From Morinoia aosen (lineage: Eukaryota; Arthropoda; Malacostraca; Amphipoda; Talitridae): DNA of 64,000 nucleotides. The stretch is from contig CM059575.1 in the NCBI GenBank assembly GCA_030386875.1, positions 43,678,859-43,742,858 on the forward strand, read 5' to 3'. How positions within the stretch are numbered: the stretch's first letter is position 1; each line of letters starts with the position of its first letter. The notes beneath the pieces were generated by a model. The model was not told where the DNA came from. It worked only from the letters and a program-made list of their open reading frames with translations, and made no database searches. Positions 13,263-41,732 of this stretch are shown in pieces. The translations under genes were made by a program, and so were the position numbers.

Positions 13263-15285
13263 ATTCCAAGTGAACCTACTGATCACCTGGAATTTATGGA
13301 TCATATTCGAGAACCCAACTCCTTTTTCTTTACGCCTACAAACTCCTCCGATGTAATTACGTGCATAAACAACATGAAAAATAAATCGAGTGGGTTACAA
13401 ACGTTTCCGACTAAAGTACTTAAAGTTATTGCTGACATTGTAGCCCCACTGATATCAAATATTATTAACCAGTCTCTCTTACTAGGTACTTTCCCGAACT
13501 CCCTCAAAGTTGCTAGAGTAACCCCTATCTTTAAAAGTGGTGAAAAAACCTGTGTAAACAATTATCGACCTATCTCCATTCTACCAATTATTAGCAAAGT
13601 ATTCGAAAAGATTGTGTATAAAAAAGTGTACTCTTATTTTGAACAAAAATCATTTCTTTACGATAAACAATACGGTTTTCGCTCTAAAAAATCAACAACA
13701 CAGGCGATATTAAATCATTTACAATTCCTCTATTCTAATATAGATGAAGGAAAGCCTGTCATCTCTGTATTTCTTGACTTCCAAAAAGCATTTGATTGTG
13801 TGGACCATAAAATACTACTCTCGAAACTACACTGTTATGGCATTCGAGGTATTGCCCATGATTGGTTCAGATCATACCTAACAAATCGGAAGCAATACGT
13901 TGTCATTGACGACGCAAAATCAGACCCACAGACAATTAGCCATGGAGTTCCACAAGGATCTGTTCTCGGGCCTCTCATGTTTCTGATTTTTATCAATGAT
14001 ATTGTAAAGTCTACATCATTCTTCAAATTCATACTTTTTGCCGATGACAGTACGCTTTCTGCGGTCCTTCCGAACCAAAATCCTGCTATGATTGTGGAGA
14101 GTATGAATACTGAACTTCACAAGGTTTCATCGTGGCTCAAAGCTAATAAAATAAGCCTAAATATCGATAAAACAAATTATATTACTCTCTCATACAAGAA
14201 AGATGTATCTCTCCCATGCATTAAAATTGGCGAAGGTGAAATCAAAGAAACCAACTCATGTAAGTTTCTGGGCATCATAATAGATAAACATCTGACCTTC
14301 AAAGAGCACATCACTCATATTAGTTCTAAATTATCAAAATCCATCGGAATCCTAAATAAAGTTAAAAATTTTCTGCCTGAAACAGCTTTACAAATGCTCT
14401 ACCGAACGCTCATTTCTCCATACTTGCAATACGGAATAGAAGCATGGCACGGAACTGATAAAAATAAAACCAACAAAGTTTTTACTCTGCAGAAAAGGGC
14501 TATCAGAGCGGTAAAGAACCTAGAATATAATGCTCACACAAATGATTCTTTCAAATATTTACAAATACTTAAACTTTCGGATCTCTACAAAATCTCCATC
14601 TGTAATTTCATTTACAAAACTTTAAGAAATGATGGCGACAATAGCCTAAGACAATTATTGACTGCGCAAACTGGTCATCACGACCATTTAACCCGAAATA
14701 GAAGTAAATTCATGCTTCCTTATCATTCAAAGGCCAGGTCGCAACACAGTATTCTCTTCGTTGGAACCAAAACTTGGAACTCTAAACCTGCAGAGATCCG
14801 TGAATGTAATTCCTACAAAGTATTCAAAAGACATCTTGAGTCTCACTTCCTATCAGAATACTAGTCGTGTAAGATCACCGTGTCGAAATCTTGCCTCCTA
14901 CATGTAACTAATGATAATGTCATAATGTAACTTGCCTTGTGTACCATAACCAATCTTCTCTCTGCTCTTGAATCGTTTTATCGAACATACTGTTAAATAT
15001 AGCCGACTTGACCTATATTGTAAAATACAGCATAAAATATCGAGTTAATTATCTCAATGATCAGTCCAATGCGAAACTAGGTTAAGTGAACTAGGTTAAA
15101 CTTTTTTGTACACCCTAGAATAACGTGATGGTAGGATGCCCTAGAAGTCGCTGAACTTATTCGGGCCCACAGGTAGCTATACTTAAATTTGACCATTGTA
15201 CTAGACTTAAGTAAAATTCTACCTCTGTATCACCTGTGGTAAATAAATTGTTTAAATTTTTAAATTGTTTAAATTGTTTAAATAT
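13263..15285 (+). mobile_element. LINE-A: young 5'-truncated CR1/Jockey-group retrotransposon
   Basis: Base-level similarity to LINE-B starts abruptly at 13263, aligning with LINE-B 33603, and runs through the RT frame and 3'UTR with only scattered differences. The element is therefore truncated at its 5' end, as expected from incomplete target-primed reverse transcription. The 3'UTR includes the GGGCCCACAGGTAGCTATAC segment that in LINE-B is split by another transposon, so LINE-A shows the empty site. The 3' end is a tail of short AATTGTTTAAA-like repeats rather than poly(A), which is typical of CR1/L2-like LINEs. The target-site duplication could not be defined by eye. Confidence 0.93.
13296..14864 (+). 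CDS. Partial LINE ORF2: reverse transcriptase and C-terminal domain, frame intact
   Basis: A 522-codon open frame holds the RT part of a non-LTR retrotransposon polyprotein. In order: an SSGLQTFPTKVLK block, RVTPIFKSGE and NNYRPISILP (RT motifs 1-2, about residues 74-100), VFLDFQKAFDCVDH with the first catalytic Asp near residue 161, GVPQGSVLGP at about 217-226, FADDS with the Asp pair at about 250-251, and a WLKANKISLNIDKT thumb-region block. The C-terminal region ends with a TKTWNSKPAEIRECNSYKVF block and SHFLSEY before the stop. The endonuclease and N-terminal half are missing because of 5' truncation, so the first Met is not the natural start. The frame is uninterrupted, unlike LINE-B, which points to recent insertion. 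It is not expected to be autonomous. Confidence 0.93.
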   Translation: MDHIREPNSFFFTPTNSSDVITCINNMKNKSSGLQTFPTKVLKVIADIVAPLISNIINQSLLLGTFPNSLKVARVTPIFKSGEKTCVNNYRPISILPIISKVFEKIVYKKVYSYFEQKSFLYDKQYGFRSKKSTTQAILNHLQFLYSNIDEGKPVISVFLDFQKAFDCVDHKILLSKLHCYGIRGIAHDWFRSYLTNRKQYVVIDDAKSDPQTISHGVPQGSVLGPLMFLIFINDIVKSTSFFKFILFADDSTLSAVLPNQNPAMIVESMNTELHKVSSWLKANKISLNIDKTNYITLSYKKDVSLPCIKIGEGEIKETNSCKFLGIIIDKHLTFKEHITHISSKLSKSIGILNKVKNFLPETALQMLYRTLISPYLQYGIEAWHGTDKNKTNKVFTLQKRAIRAVKNLEYNAHTNDSFKYLQILKLSDLYKISICNFIYKTLRNDGDNSLRQLLTAQTGHHDHLTRNRSKFMLPYHSKARSQHSILFVGTKTWNSKPAEIRECNSYKVFKRHLESHFLSEY

Positions 15286-35206: not shown

Positions 35207-35513
35207 TGTAAAATCACCATGTCAAATCTTGCCTCCTACATGTAACTAATGATAATGTAATAATGTAACTTGCTTTGGGTAACATAACCGATCTTCAGTC
35301 TGCTCTTGAATCGTTTTATCGAACATACTGTTAAATATAGCCGATTTGACCTATATTGTAAAATACAGCATAAAATATCGACTTAATTATCTCAATGATC
35401 ATTCTAATGCGAAACTAGGTTAAGTGAACTAGGTTAAACATTATTGTACACCTTAGAATAACGTGATGATAGAATGCCCTAGAAGTCGCTGAACTTGTTC
35501 GGGCCCACAGGTA

Positions 35514-35536
35514 GGGTAATTCATCAAATATCGAAC
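35514..35536 (+). repeat. 5' terminal inverted repeat of the 1,641-bp element
   Basis: 23 bases beginning GGGTAATTCATCAA and ending TCGAAC, a perfect inverted match to 37132-37154. Similarity fades quickly beyond this. Confidence 0.97.
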
Positions 35537-36089
35537 TGAACTGATTATCGAACAACTTTGGAAATATGCGCGTAATAAATTTAGTAAGCATCCAAACTTG
35601 CTCAGTGCCAGTGATCTTACATCTAAAACTCCTATTTTAGTGATAAAAACTCATTTCTGTGAGCTGCAAACTGCTACCAGCTGTTGCGAACGCATTTTCT
35701 GTACGACCCTTACAAATTGGTCGAATTTTTTCACTCGAAAAATCTTACGCACCTCGGGAAAATTGCGACGGTTTAATTGTTGTTGGGTCACCGTCAACCT
35801 CCCGTCATAACTAGAGAGTAGTGTTGTCATATGATGTTCTGTTACTGTATTTTTTCTTTTCCGCCAAAAACTTGATAATTATTCCATGTTCGACATTCAG
35901 TTCCTTTTTCATGTCAGTATTAAATACTGAACAAAGGTGTTCGAATCAAAATTCCTTAAAAATCATGAATCTATGCCTCGAACAAAGCTTTTCGATTCTT
36001 AATTCTTTTAAATAACTGAATCGATCTATTGAACGCCTGTTTCATTTCATTAAAATATTGTATTAACGCTTGATAATAACATTGAATAG

Positions 36090-36455
36090 TTGAAGATGGG
36101 AATTCTGGTGAGGGGCTATCAATCATCTGCTGGTGTTCCAAAGCCCTCAAGATCATCAATGATTCGTCTGGCTACATTTACTGATGATCAATCCCTTGCC
36201 AAGAAAATTGATGCAAGCATCAATAATAATTCATTGACGAGTGCTTTACACTCTACTCCAAAAAAGGTCACACAGGTTGATGATCACAATGATGGTTCAA
36301 CAAACACTGCAAATGAAACATCGACATCATATTCAAATTTTGATAACTCTCCATTCAAATGCATCTTGAAAATAAGTAATGAGACAGTTATTTCAAACAA
36401 ACAAACAAAACAAACATCGGCATCTTTGGGATGCTTTATTTCCAATCAAGCCTGA
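36090..36455 (+). CDS. Hypothetical 121-aa frame inside the 1,641-bp element
   Basis: This is the longest open frame in the plus strand of the element. It is Ser, Thr and Asn rich, with SMIRLATFTDDQSLAKKI in the first third and low-complexity stretches afterwards. I recognise no DDE, zinc-finger or HTH signature. It may be a degraded piece of a transposase, part of a captured sequence, or chance. Confidence 0.2.
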   Translation: MKMGILVRGYQSSAGVPKPSRSSMIRLATFTDDQSLAKKIDASINNNSLTSALHSTPKKVTQVDDHNDGSTNTANETSTSYSNFDNSPFKCILKISNETVISNKQTKQTSASLGCFISNQA

Positions 36456-36504
36456 TACAAATGATCTTAAGCATTGGTTTTTCAAATGTCTTATAACTAA
36501 CACT

Positions 36505-36700
36505 ATATATAGGACACCATGACGGTTCCCCCGTAAAGCCGGTACCCATTTCCGACACCTGGGTCGAGTGGGGTATTGTGCTTGAGCTTTCCCTTATACC
36601 CAACGGGGAAAATCGCAGCGCCAGCACCGGGATACGAACCCGCGACTCCAACATACAAGTCCGATCCCTTAACCGATGTGCCACCGCGAGCACTTCCAAG
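36505..36700 (-). mobile_element. tRNA-derived SINE
   Basis: On the minus strand a tRNA-like head begins GCTCGCGGTGGCACATCGG at 36691. It contains a Pol III A box (TGGCACATCGG, 36673-36683) and a B box (GGTTCGTATCC, 36630-36640; consensus GGTTCGANTCC), 32 bases apart as in tRNA genes. A tRNA-unrelated body follows (GATTTTCCCCGTTGGGTATA, then CCCACTCGACCCAGGTGTCG) down to about 36505, ending near TATATATAG. There is no CCA-ready acceptor stem, so it is a SINE and not a tRNA gene. It lies inside the 1,641-bp transposon and is younger than it, unless it came along with it. Confidence 0.8.
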
Positions 36701-36774
36701 AAAATCCAGTGCACCAAAGAAAAAAAGAATGAAAGAAAAACGTTTATTTTCCAAGTGGCCACATGAGGTGTACA

Positions 36775-36905
36775 AATAGATAGACCATACGAGGCATATT
36801 AATGGACAAAATATACGAGGCGTACTAATAGACAAACCATACGTGGCGTGCTAATAGTCTAACAAAAGTTCCATACGAAGAGAACTAATTGACAAACCAT
36901 CCTGT
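36775..36905. repeat. ~26-bp tandem repeat, 4 copies
   Basis: The unit ACAAACCATACGTGGCGTGC followed by TAATAG recurs with variants (ATACGAGGCGTACTAATAG, ATACGAGGCATATTAATGG, ATACGAAGAGAACTAATTG). The third and fourth copies are separated by a few inserted bases. The array lies between the SINE and the right end of the 1,641-bp element. Confidence 0.75.
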
Positions 36906-37131
36906 TCGAATCAAAAATCTTGTTCGATTCCTGTTCGATATTGATGAAATTATGTTACTAAAGAATTCGATTTTTATAACAATAAATACATTTCAATAAT
37001 CTACGTTGTCTTTCAAGCGACATCACAGAACAAGAAAGCAACTGTTCAAGAATAACCTTGAGGCCCGCAAGAGTTATTCAGAGCAAAAGTTACCGATTTA
37101 TGAAGGTTGTTTCTAGACACACGTGATTTCT

Positions 37132-37154
37132 GTTCGATATTTGATGAATTACCC
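37132..37154 (-). repeat. 3' terminal inverted repeat of the 1,641-bp element
   Basis: 23 bases beginning GTTCGATATT and ending GATGAATTACCC, the exact reverse complement of the 5' terminal repeat, followed by the duplicated TA and the resumed LINE-B 3'UTR. Confidence 0.97.
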
Positions 37155-37240
37155 TAGCTATACTCAAATTTGACCATTGTATTCGGCTTAAGAAACATTC
37201 TATCTCTGAATCACCTGTGGTCAATAAATTGTTTAAATTG

Positions 37241-38239: not shown

Positions 38240-40330
38240 CTGATGAGGAACTTAAAAACGTGGAAAATTCTAAAGAAATTAATCATATTTAATGGGAAAA
38301 CGTTTCACAGTCCAGCTCCATCATCAGTTTAAAAAGGACAAATCATTATGTCTGAAATAAAACATCAAAACACTTTTAATGACAATCATTAAAAGATATC
38401 GCGGAAACAAAAATGTGTAAGAGAAAAATGAAACTGGAAAGATTACAATAGATTTTCTATTTGCAATGGGTATGAACTGTCAGTATTGTTAAGGACAGGT
38501 TTTCGTTTAAATATATGTTAAGACTCTTAAATCTTTCGATCATAAAAGATTGAGGTTAGAGTCTAAGATTTTGAACTCGAGCAAAGCTATCGGTGCATTG
38601 CATTTTAGGCGTGATTGCGTACTGCGGAGTGAGAGGGGTGTGCTTATTGAGTTCCAGTACGGAAGCTTCTAAGCCCCTCTGATGTAAAAATTCCGTGACG
38701 TCATATGCCGACGTAGGATGATGTGCAGTGCACACAACTATAAGCATAAACCAGAGAGGCTCGCATATCGATGGGAAGCGCATCCTCGTGCAGGAAAAAA
38801 TAAACCACTCTAAAATTATTAACAAGAGCGACGCGTCACTGGAAGCCATGAAAGTATTTTTTACACAGTAATTTCAATTCAGGTTACAATTTCTCAGATG
38901 GTGCTCCAATGTACGGGAAGGAACAGTATGAATGGTCTTTATTGTTTTCTTCAATAATTTGTGATGCGTATTGCTTCGACACCAATTTCTTAATTTACGA
39001 ATTTGAGAATTTATGACACCCAACGGAAACTGATAGGTTTCCGTGGGTGATTTTTTTCGGTACAAATATACGCTTCCAATTGATATGCGAACATTTGTGG
39101 TTAATTCTCACAGTTGTGTGTAGTGCACCTCATCGTACATCGGCATGACGTCTCGGGATATATACAGGGCGTCTCACAAAAATGTCCTAGACTTTTTAAT
39201 TGATTATATCTCCGCTTTAAATAACCATATTTGAATTGTCTTTTTTTCGCAATGTAGTATATTTTGTTTTCTTTTCGAACAATTTAAGGTTTTGAACATC
39301 AATTGAATAACCACTTTACAATGATTGATTTACTGAAAAGGTAGAAAAACTAATAGTTCGAAGGAAATGTTTTTTAAAAACAACACTGATAACCTTCTTC
39401 ATTTCTCAATACCTACTGTTGAAAATGATTTGAAAATGATGTGTCTTACATACCACCAAGTATGTATCACCTTCATCATTAATAATTCTTTGACAACGAA
39501 TTGAAGAAGTGTTTCAAGTACTGAAAGAAAACGGTGGAATAATTTGCTAAACACTTCGTTCGATGGTGGCTAGAAGTAATACTTGCCTTGAGAGAAATGG
39601 TTGGTATGTCGAAGGATACTAAATCACTTTATTCATTTGTTTAAACTTTATTTAAGGTAATGATTTGTTACTTTTTTAAATTTTTGTTTGTTCGGTTTTT
39701 TGGAAACTACAAAATAAGGAAGAATATCAATATTGTTTTAAAAACTTTTCCTTTGAACTATTAGTTTTTCTACCCTTTCAGTAAATCGATCATTGTAAAG
39801 TTAACAAAGATCATTGTAAAGTTAACCGATTTTCAAAGACTTAAATTATTTGAAAAGGAAAAAAGTTTACTACATTGTGAAAAAACGACAATTAAAATAC
39901 TTTTATTTAATGCGGAGGTATAATCAATTAAAAAGTCGGGGACATTTTTGTGGGACATCCGGTATATCAGAGTGACAGAGCATCGGGGTAGAACTTTTCG
40001 TACTGGAACTCAGTTAGCGCACCCCTCTCACTCCACAGTAAGCAATCACGTCGAAAAATGCCGACTTCCGAAAACTTGTCTGTAACAATACTGACAGTTC
40101 ATACCCGTTGCAAATGGTAAATCAATAAAAAAATTTCGAAGTTCATTTCTGTTTTATTCTTGTTTTCGAAATATCTTTCAATGACTGTCATTAACAGTTA
40201 TTTTATCTTTTATTTCAGACAGAATGATTTGCACTTTTTGAACTGATAATGGAGATGGACTGCGAAACGTTTTTCCATTAAATATGATTTATATCTTTAG
40301 AATTTTCCTCGTTTTTAGGTTCCTCATAAC
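38240..40330. repeat. Long imperfect inverted repeat (hairpin), right arm split by a MITE
   Basis: The left arm (38240-38808) pairs with the reverse complement of a right arm in two parts (39045-39163 and 39965-40330). Matching landmarks, left versus inverted right, are GATGAGGAAC/TATGAGGAAC, GGTATGAACTGTCAGTATTG on both sides, GGAGTGAGAGGGGTG on both sides, GAGTTCCAGTACG on both sides, GACGTCATATGCCGACG/GACGTCATGCCGATG, and TCGCATATCGATGGGAAGCG/TCGCATATCAATTGGAAGCG. By eye identity is roughly 75-80 percent. The central spacer (38809-39044) ends in a small hairpin, CACCCAACGGAAAC with GGTTTCCGTGGGTG. No protein is coded. Transcribed RNA would fold into a long hairpin once the MITE is discounted. 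An old foldback element or an inverted duplication are both possible origins. Confidence 0.85.
39165..39962. mobile_element. 798-bp mariner-type MITE with ~240-bp inverted repeats (TA target site)
   Basis: The left end CAGGGCGTCTCACAAAAATG and the inverted right end CCGGATGTCCCACAAAAATG are flanked by TA on both sides (39163-39164 and 39963-39964). Inverted similarity continues for about 236-246 bp on each side (39165-39400 and 39717-39962), including GGTAGAAAAACTAATAGTTC. CAGGGTGTCCCA-like termini with TA duplication recur in arthropod mariner-type elements, from which this is probably a non-autonomous derivative. The right arm has a local duplication of GATCATTGTAAAGTTAAC. The roughly 316-bp centre codes for nothing recognised. 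It splits one arm of the longer inverted repeat and so is younger. Confidence 0.88.
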
Positions 40331-41187: not shown

Positions 41188-41215
41188 TTTCGAGCATATC
41201 CACACTCATCTTCAA
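41188..41215 (-). ncRNA. Hammerhead-like core in Penelope tail (left arm)
   Basis: The inverted arm keeps the same TTGAAGATGAGTGTGG...CTCGAAAGC core on the minus strand. Only the loop differs (GGATATG rather than GGGTATG). Conservation of the paired TGAG/CTC and the GAAA in both arms fits a shared origin and perhaps past function. Confidence 0.35.
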
Positions 41216-41407
41216 TATCTGGAAAATTAAATTGAAACATGGTAAACACAGTACATGAATACAAATTGTTATTGGAAACTAAATGAAAAAATTAGGACAA
41301 GATATTTAGAGGCGCAGAATGTGACATATCATTGAGACTTGGCTTAAATTGATGAATTATGACACTTTCTAGTAACTCAAGGCTATGTTTATCACAAGCA
41401 CAAGGGG

Positions 41408-41626
41408 GTGTCGGTCCGTACGGGAAATAGAGTGTCAAACCCATTGCACAGCAGTATAAGAGATCACGCATTAGAATCTGACCATCCAATCCGCACTGAT
41501 GATTTCAAAATAGTCTCAACTTGTGATAAACATAGCCTTAAGTTACTAGAAAGTGTCATAATTCATCAATTTAAGCCAAGTCTCATTAATATGTCATCTT
41601 CTGCTCCTCTAAATATTTTGTCCTAA
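41408..41626 (+). pseudogene. C-terminal fragment of Penelope-like GIY-YIG endonuclease
   Basis: 72 codons. The stretch HSSIRDHALESDHPI, then DDFKIVS, then LKLLESVIIHQFKPSLINMS resembles the conserved end of the GIY-YIG domain in Penelope-like retroelements, which would nick the target for cDNA priming. The GIY-YIG motif itself and the RT lie upstream in the intact family and are missing here. The first Met is arbitrary, and the protein would not be functional. Confidence 0.6.
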
Positions 41627-41702
41627 ATTTTTCATTTAATTTCCAATAACAATATGTATTCATGTACTGTGTTTACAATGTTTCAATTCAATTTTCCAGA
41701 TA

Positions 41703-41732
41703 TTGAAGATGAGTGTGGGTATGCTCGAAAGC
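41703..41732 (+). ncRNA. Hammerhead-like core in Penelope tail (right arm)
   Basis: TTGAAGA at 41703-41709 resembles the hammerhead core CUGANGA with the first C replaced by T. It is followed by TGAG...CTC able to form stem II and then CGAAAGC at 41726-41732, matching the conserved GAAA. Hammerhead motifs are known in Penelope-like elements of many animals. I could not place stems I and III or the cleavage site with confidence, and the C-to-U change at a key position would likely disable it. Confidence 0.35.

Follow-up and report, generated by a model that had tools for sequence, protein, structure and literature searches.

The 1,641-bp insertion at positions 35514-37154 of the window (the whole stretch of 64,000 nucleotides of Morinoia aosen DNA analyzed here) is very probably a non-autonomous and very young copy of a pogo-superfamily (IS630-Tc1-mariner) transposon, belonging to a family whose transposase combines a psq helix-turn-helix (HTH) with a DDE_1 domain of the DD35D type, and mobilized in trans by that enzyme. 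An earlier note on this DNA had left the element unassigned, as either a new family or a non-autonomous member of a known one; assignment to the pogo superfamily is now supported, and the second of these two alternatives is the one that agrees with our results.

Boundaries, empty sites and recent spread

The limits of the element, and of the site that it occupies, are as follows (window coordinates):

35512..35513, no strand: left TA target-site duplication (TSD)
35514..35536, plus strand: left terminal inverted repeat (TIR), 23 bp, GGGTAATTCATCAAATATCGAAC
37132..37154, minus strand: right TIR, 23 bp, exact reverse complement of GGGTAATTCATCAAATATCGAAC
37155..37156, no strand: right TA target-site duplication
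15174..15175, no strand: TA of the paralogous LINE-A site, which is uninterrupted (empty)

When the insertion, with its perfect inverted ends, is removed, the joined flanks align to the LINE copy at 13674-15264 with 94.3% identity over 1,591 columns, in an alignment that spans the junction and has 2 gaps in total, both away from it, and the empty site in LINE-A holds a single TA where the occupied site holds two. A second empty site, again with both flanks, is provided by L032, in which a copy is inserted within the 26-bp minisatellite of another copy, and 22 bases of the rejoined junction recur at 36816, within the minisatellite of the window copy. Another copy (L079) is nested in a 2.2-kb relative, with one flank read. 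All 24 elements that we delimited have TA at both ends, in a set for which the searches required TA at one end or more, in which flanks are common to L003/L004 and to L019/L020, and which leaves out two cross-pairings between nested ends of L032. The perfect 23-bp TIRs, the TA duplication, the empty site in LINE-A and the exact boundaries claimed in the earlier note thus all hold, and its concern that other copies might have different boundaries was checked in the same 24 elements, every one of which keeps the boundaries seen here.

That the insertion is a duplicated segment or a chance repeat, and no transposon at all, has next to no probability: a few copies are indeed duplicates of larger segments, because they have common flanks (the two pairs named above), but this reading is already refuted for the window element by the two empty sites for which both flanks were read, by the TA on either side of all 24 elements, and by copies with differing flanks across many contigs. 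In the 64-kb window, a search for inverted pairs whose arms are perfect over at least 23 bp and lie no more than 10 kb apart found only three. A second TIR-like unit is located at 38468-40106, with 24-bp perfect inverted ends starting GGGTATGAACTGTCAG, which are unlike those of the 1,641-bp element's family, and with flanks (tttgcaat / gttgcaaa) that by eye form a possible 8-bp duplication; a foldback structure with inverted arms of 178 bp lies at 41200-41718.

The transposon is abundant in the genome, which was searched over 2.0 Gb in 29 contigs. The pattern TA plus TIR (25 bases, at most 2 mismatches) marks 3,377 ends genome-wide (1,678 + 1,699), compared to 0 + 0 for the reversed control pattern, and at least 40 copies are present at 99-100% identity (the best 40 of 2,541 candidates), the matches listed being 39 complete copies (the window copy among them), a further copy that lacks its initial 7 bases, and a fragment of 39 bases. 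Eight copies that were read (two of them with common flanks) differ pairwise by 0-6 substitutions over 1,641 bp, and 10 of their 12 variable columns are singletons, from which it follows that this class spread very recently.

The 24 delimited elements measure 1.08-2.19 kb, apart from three longer ones, one of which (3.66 kb) includes a nested copy that was counted separately. The other two (L019 and L020, 7.0 and 7.3 kb) were considered as the autonomous form and rejected, as they hold a LINE, with endonuclease and reverse transcriptase domains in the open frame of L019. TIR pairs spaced 23.8 kb apart were likewise set aside, as they hold other repeats with CCHC gag-like frames; two such pairs, C1:21969488-21993307 and C1:22545938-22569757, have identical 23,820-bp spacing and matching end pieces, and probably result from segmental duplication of a nested composite that carries these frames.

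Fixed arms and variable filler

Comparison of the window copy with five relatives (L010, L027, L031, L037 and L075) shows that the interior is variable and the arms are fixed, measuring about 430-550 bp on the left and about 254-303 bp on the right across the relatives. The window copy is divided as follows:

35514..36063, plus strand: left arm, about 550 bp, common to the 2.2-kb relatives with a psq exon
36096..36455, plus strand: 119-aa open frame in the filler
36419..36695, minus strand: SINE-like stretch (tRNA-like box and outer limits set by eye)
36761..36900, plus strand: 26-bp minisatellite, 5 copies
36901..37154, plus strand: right arm, about 254 bp, common to all five relatives compared

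The left arm is 94.5% identical to that of L031 over 550 bp and 94.7% identical to that of L075 over 551 bp, and the right arm is 93.7% identical to both. Between them lies an interior filler of about 840 bp that is missing from the relatives compared, and that consists of the open frame, the SINE-like stretch and the minisatellite, the last of which varies in copy number among relatives. The SINE-like stretch is 79% identical to part of L031 over 36419-36640, and ARAGORN finds no tRNA in it. The interior of L027, in turn, carries a foldback insert (its likeness to the foldback of L048 was judged by eye).

The 119-aa frame was considered as a cargo gene and rejected. It has no match in Pfam and a single insignificant one in the PDB (E 2.2), and, with L001-L008 excluded, 9 of 21 aligned stretches are frameshifted and the synonymous fraction is near-neutral (0.30 versus 0.27 expected). 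Substitutions are uneven by codon position (87, 57, 35), and taken together the alignments give no clear sign of coding constraint. We also observed short frames pointing outward in the arms (35651-35830 on the minus strand and 37006-37116 on the plus strand of the window), which by eye are partly conserved among subfamilies and have no Pfam match, and which may be either coding remnants or chance. The earlier note had seen no transposase, and for the window copy this is what we find as well.

Transposase genes and the ends of the element

The 2.2-kb relatives L031 and L075, which have both arms in common with the window element, contain a psq helix-turn-helix exon, 658 bp and 661 bp from the left end, respectively, that matches HTH_psq in Pfam above the cut-off (E 6.1e-5 in L075). 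The family transposase, found elsewhere in the genome and not in the window copy, carries a DDE_1 domain (PF03184, E 1.7e-22), and the translation of L091 reads DD35D, with the first aspartate outside the stretch read. Among 150 scored matches of 300 candidates, the DDE reaches 86-100% identity to L091 at seven loci, and at each of them the psq exon (93-100%) lies upstream on the same strand, at a distance of 748-6,958 bp, compared to about 0.004 pairings expected by chance (from 7 DDE copies, about 80 close exons, 14 kb and 2 Gb). A distance of 43 kb separates two of these loci, C24:35946735 and C24:35990060, which are oppositely oriented and are possibly inverted duplicates of each other, and the exon at C24:37459725 contains a stop. 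The genome also holds transposases 58-63% identical to L091, many with long open frames, several of which have psq exons (about 53-68% identical) nearby on the same strand; these are putative sister families.

Two loci connect this transposase to the ends of the window element. At C21:92614232-92616479, the psq exon, the DDE, and then the right TIR with TA of the window element's family lie in line, with the TIR 905 bp downstream of the DDE, and a 36-base probe taken 206 bp before the end is identical to the right arm of L037 (36/36). At C24:63588118 (minus strand), the left end (26/29 bases) lies 651 bp before the psq exon, with the DDE in line; a right-side probe matched no arm there. The left arm of the C21:92614232 copy is interrupted by a foldback element, which occupies the predicted place of the left TIR, and this TIR is also not among the 55 places of the exact left-end pattern. 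Since C21:112132415 and C24:63588118 have a frame-conserved sequence in common at the point at which the right arm of the C21:92614232 copy has already begun, the transposase of this copy has probably lost its C-terminal part. At C21:112132415, four short probes all failed to match the arms, and one of the four is probably the transposase C-terminus; a single probe near the DDE copy at C15:19243630 (a 63% relative) found no arm. Foldback elements were seen beside transposase genes in two cases, namely L048:210-721, which is self-inverted and adjoins a DDE_Tnp_4 gene, and a related sequence at C21:92613499-92614140 (estimated coordinates) at the transposase locus above.

The longer, transposase-coding relative that the earlier note proposed to seek has in this way been found in part, as psq/DDE_1 loci with one family end each; among the loci read, none has both TIRs and an intact transposase in one piece. 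A junction pattern for a full-length copy has 68 places, one of them without mismatch (C5:37393203), and this one is a nested copy. L076, on C15, in which both TIRs of the window element's family flank a DDE_1 gene, was also rejected as the autonomous form: L077 and L078 have the same gene with their own ends, AGTCATTCGGGGC, next to TA, and a search of both for the arms of the window element's family found none, so L076 is a 2.2-kb element in which a different pogo-type transposon is nested (L076:1789-5200). A transposase gene between two TIRs may thus be a nested stranger. The second pogo-type family, comprising L077, L078 and the nested element, resembles the first in having a psq exon and a DDE_1 frame (775-780 aa in two copies) and ends that adjoin TA, and differs from it in those ends, in the arms, which were not found, and in the transposase, which is 30% identical over the DDE.

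The nesting in L076 raises the question of whether the psq/DDE_1 gene is itself a passenger, that is, a pogo insert in the ancestor of the 2.2-kb relatives, with the GGGTAATTC ends moved by a transposase of another TA-targeting group. We consider this improbable, even though L076 displays just this kind of nesting and none of the loci read in one piece is a complete autonomous copy. The psq exon lies at nearly the same distance from the left TIR in L031 and L075, it is kept at all seven close DDE loci, and at C21:92614232 the DDE runs into the right arm of the window element's family. Furthermore, L075 lacks the insertion of L076, and its outer TIRs are the longest and best (93%) of the inverted pairs spanning the psq exon, and the sole long, near-perfect pair among them, the inner ones being only 14-20 nt long and 75-88% identical.

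We therefore retain the reading of the window copy as a non-autonomous member of this psq/DDE_1 family. Taking into account the boundaries of the mobile unit, its TA target, the empty sites, the number and recency of copies and the shared arms, together with relatives that have these ends and contain the psq exon, one locus joining psq, DDE_1 and the right TIR, and another joining the left end, psq and DDE_1, we infer the following mechanism. The window copy, having no enzyme of its own, would depend in trans on the pogo-type transposase encoded by longer relatives within this genome, for which it keeps the sequences that would serve binding and cutting (the left arm of about 550 bp, the right arm of about 254 bp and the 23-bp TIRs). 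The transposase would bind the ends and excise the element, which would then be pasted into a TA that is duplicated in the process; the filler would have been acquired between the arms, and the family may be active at present.

Classification and comparison with known systems

The fit to pogo rests on the TA duplication, the short TIRs, the DDE_1 domain with DD35D and the N-terminal HTH. In the accessible part of PMC7386202, pogo elements are described as having a TA TSD, TIRs no longer than 40 bp, an N-terminal HTH and a DDE_1 domain of the DD35D type, and the part of PMC7325037 available to us likewise gives the TA TSD, short TIRs and DD35D. The family studied here has the TA duplication (at the empty sites and in 24 of 24 elements), perfect TIRs of 23 bp, a DDE_1 domain with an aspartate triad within the DD29-56D range in family members (not in the window copy itself), and, in L075, HTH_psq, one of the pogo types of N-terminal HTH (psq, CENP-B_N, Tc5, Brk).

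The GG/GGG start of the TIRs would also suggest a PIF/Harbinger-ISL2EU (PHIS) element, as PHIS TIRs often begin with GG or GGG according to the part of PMC4482050 that was accessible; the same part, however, lists duplications of TWA, AT, ANT, CWG, TNA or nothing for PHIS, never TA, and it is mainly on this TSD that we dropped the assignment as very unlikely. In addition, DDE_Tnp_4 has 150 scored matches (of 1,382 candidates), and the 30 of these loci that were read have no TIR within about 1.5 kb; ISL2EU is recognized by an AT duplication and a YqaJ gene, whereas the element duplicates TA and the genome has only two YqaJ hits, at neither of which any TIR match has fewer than 3 mismatches in 14. 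The G-rich TIR start is thus what the element has in common with ISL2EU and PIF-Harbinger, and the TSD and transposase are what set it apart, as far as the accessible portion of that source describes them. The two YqaJ matches, C26:21096762 and C29:37506, are possibly foreign or contaminating DNA, with one in surroundings of 57% GC and the other in 36% GC.

Returning to the pogo assignment, the element is most likely of an ordinary kind, a member of a known superfamily with an end sequence that we did not match to a named family; in a full-text literature search, its 12 terminal bases were matched in only two papers, both unrelated by title. Many pogo elements have a CAGT-like start, whereas the terminus here is GGGTAATTC. 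It is possible, and we propose it only tentatively, that the family represents an undescribed pogo lineage that combines GGG-starting termini with a psq HTH exon and DD35D, in which the arms of the short members stay fixed while the DNA between them is repeatedly of unrelated origin (SINE-like stretches, minisatellites, unique sequence, a LINE), and such members then multiply, one class having done so in a burst of very recent date. Beyond the transposon annotation of the Morinoia aosen genome, the significance of the element is ordinary; the family does provide a clean, recently active transposon set for which the ends are exactly known and both empty sites and candidate transposase loci are at hand, and these make trans-mobilization testable.

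Compared to the pogo groups (Passer, Tigger, pogoR, Lemi, Mover, Fot/Fot-like) as described in the available parts of the sources, the family has in common the TA duplication, a short TIR, DDE_1 with DD35D and the N-terminal HTH. DD35D is described as a typical feature of Passer and of Fot/Fot-like (PMC7386202, PMC7325037), and the psq-type HTH, in the accessible part of PMC7386202, is reported for Fot/Fot-like, with Passer, Tigger and pogoR not among the groups reported to have it. With Passer, the family has in common DD35D, the TA TSD and short TIRs, mostly <30 bp (PMC9976928, in part). Passer transposases are described as having BrkDBD with HTH_Tnp_Tc5, or HTH_Tnp_Tc5 alone (PMC7386202, in part), whereas HTH_psq is seen in the exon of the relatives of the window element, the stretch between exon and DDE lying outside the sequence read. 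Finally, the DDE-holding open frames reach up to 825 aa here, in comparison to Passer transposases of 400-500 aa in the portion of PMC9976928 available.
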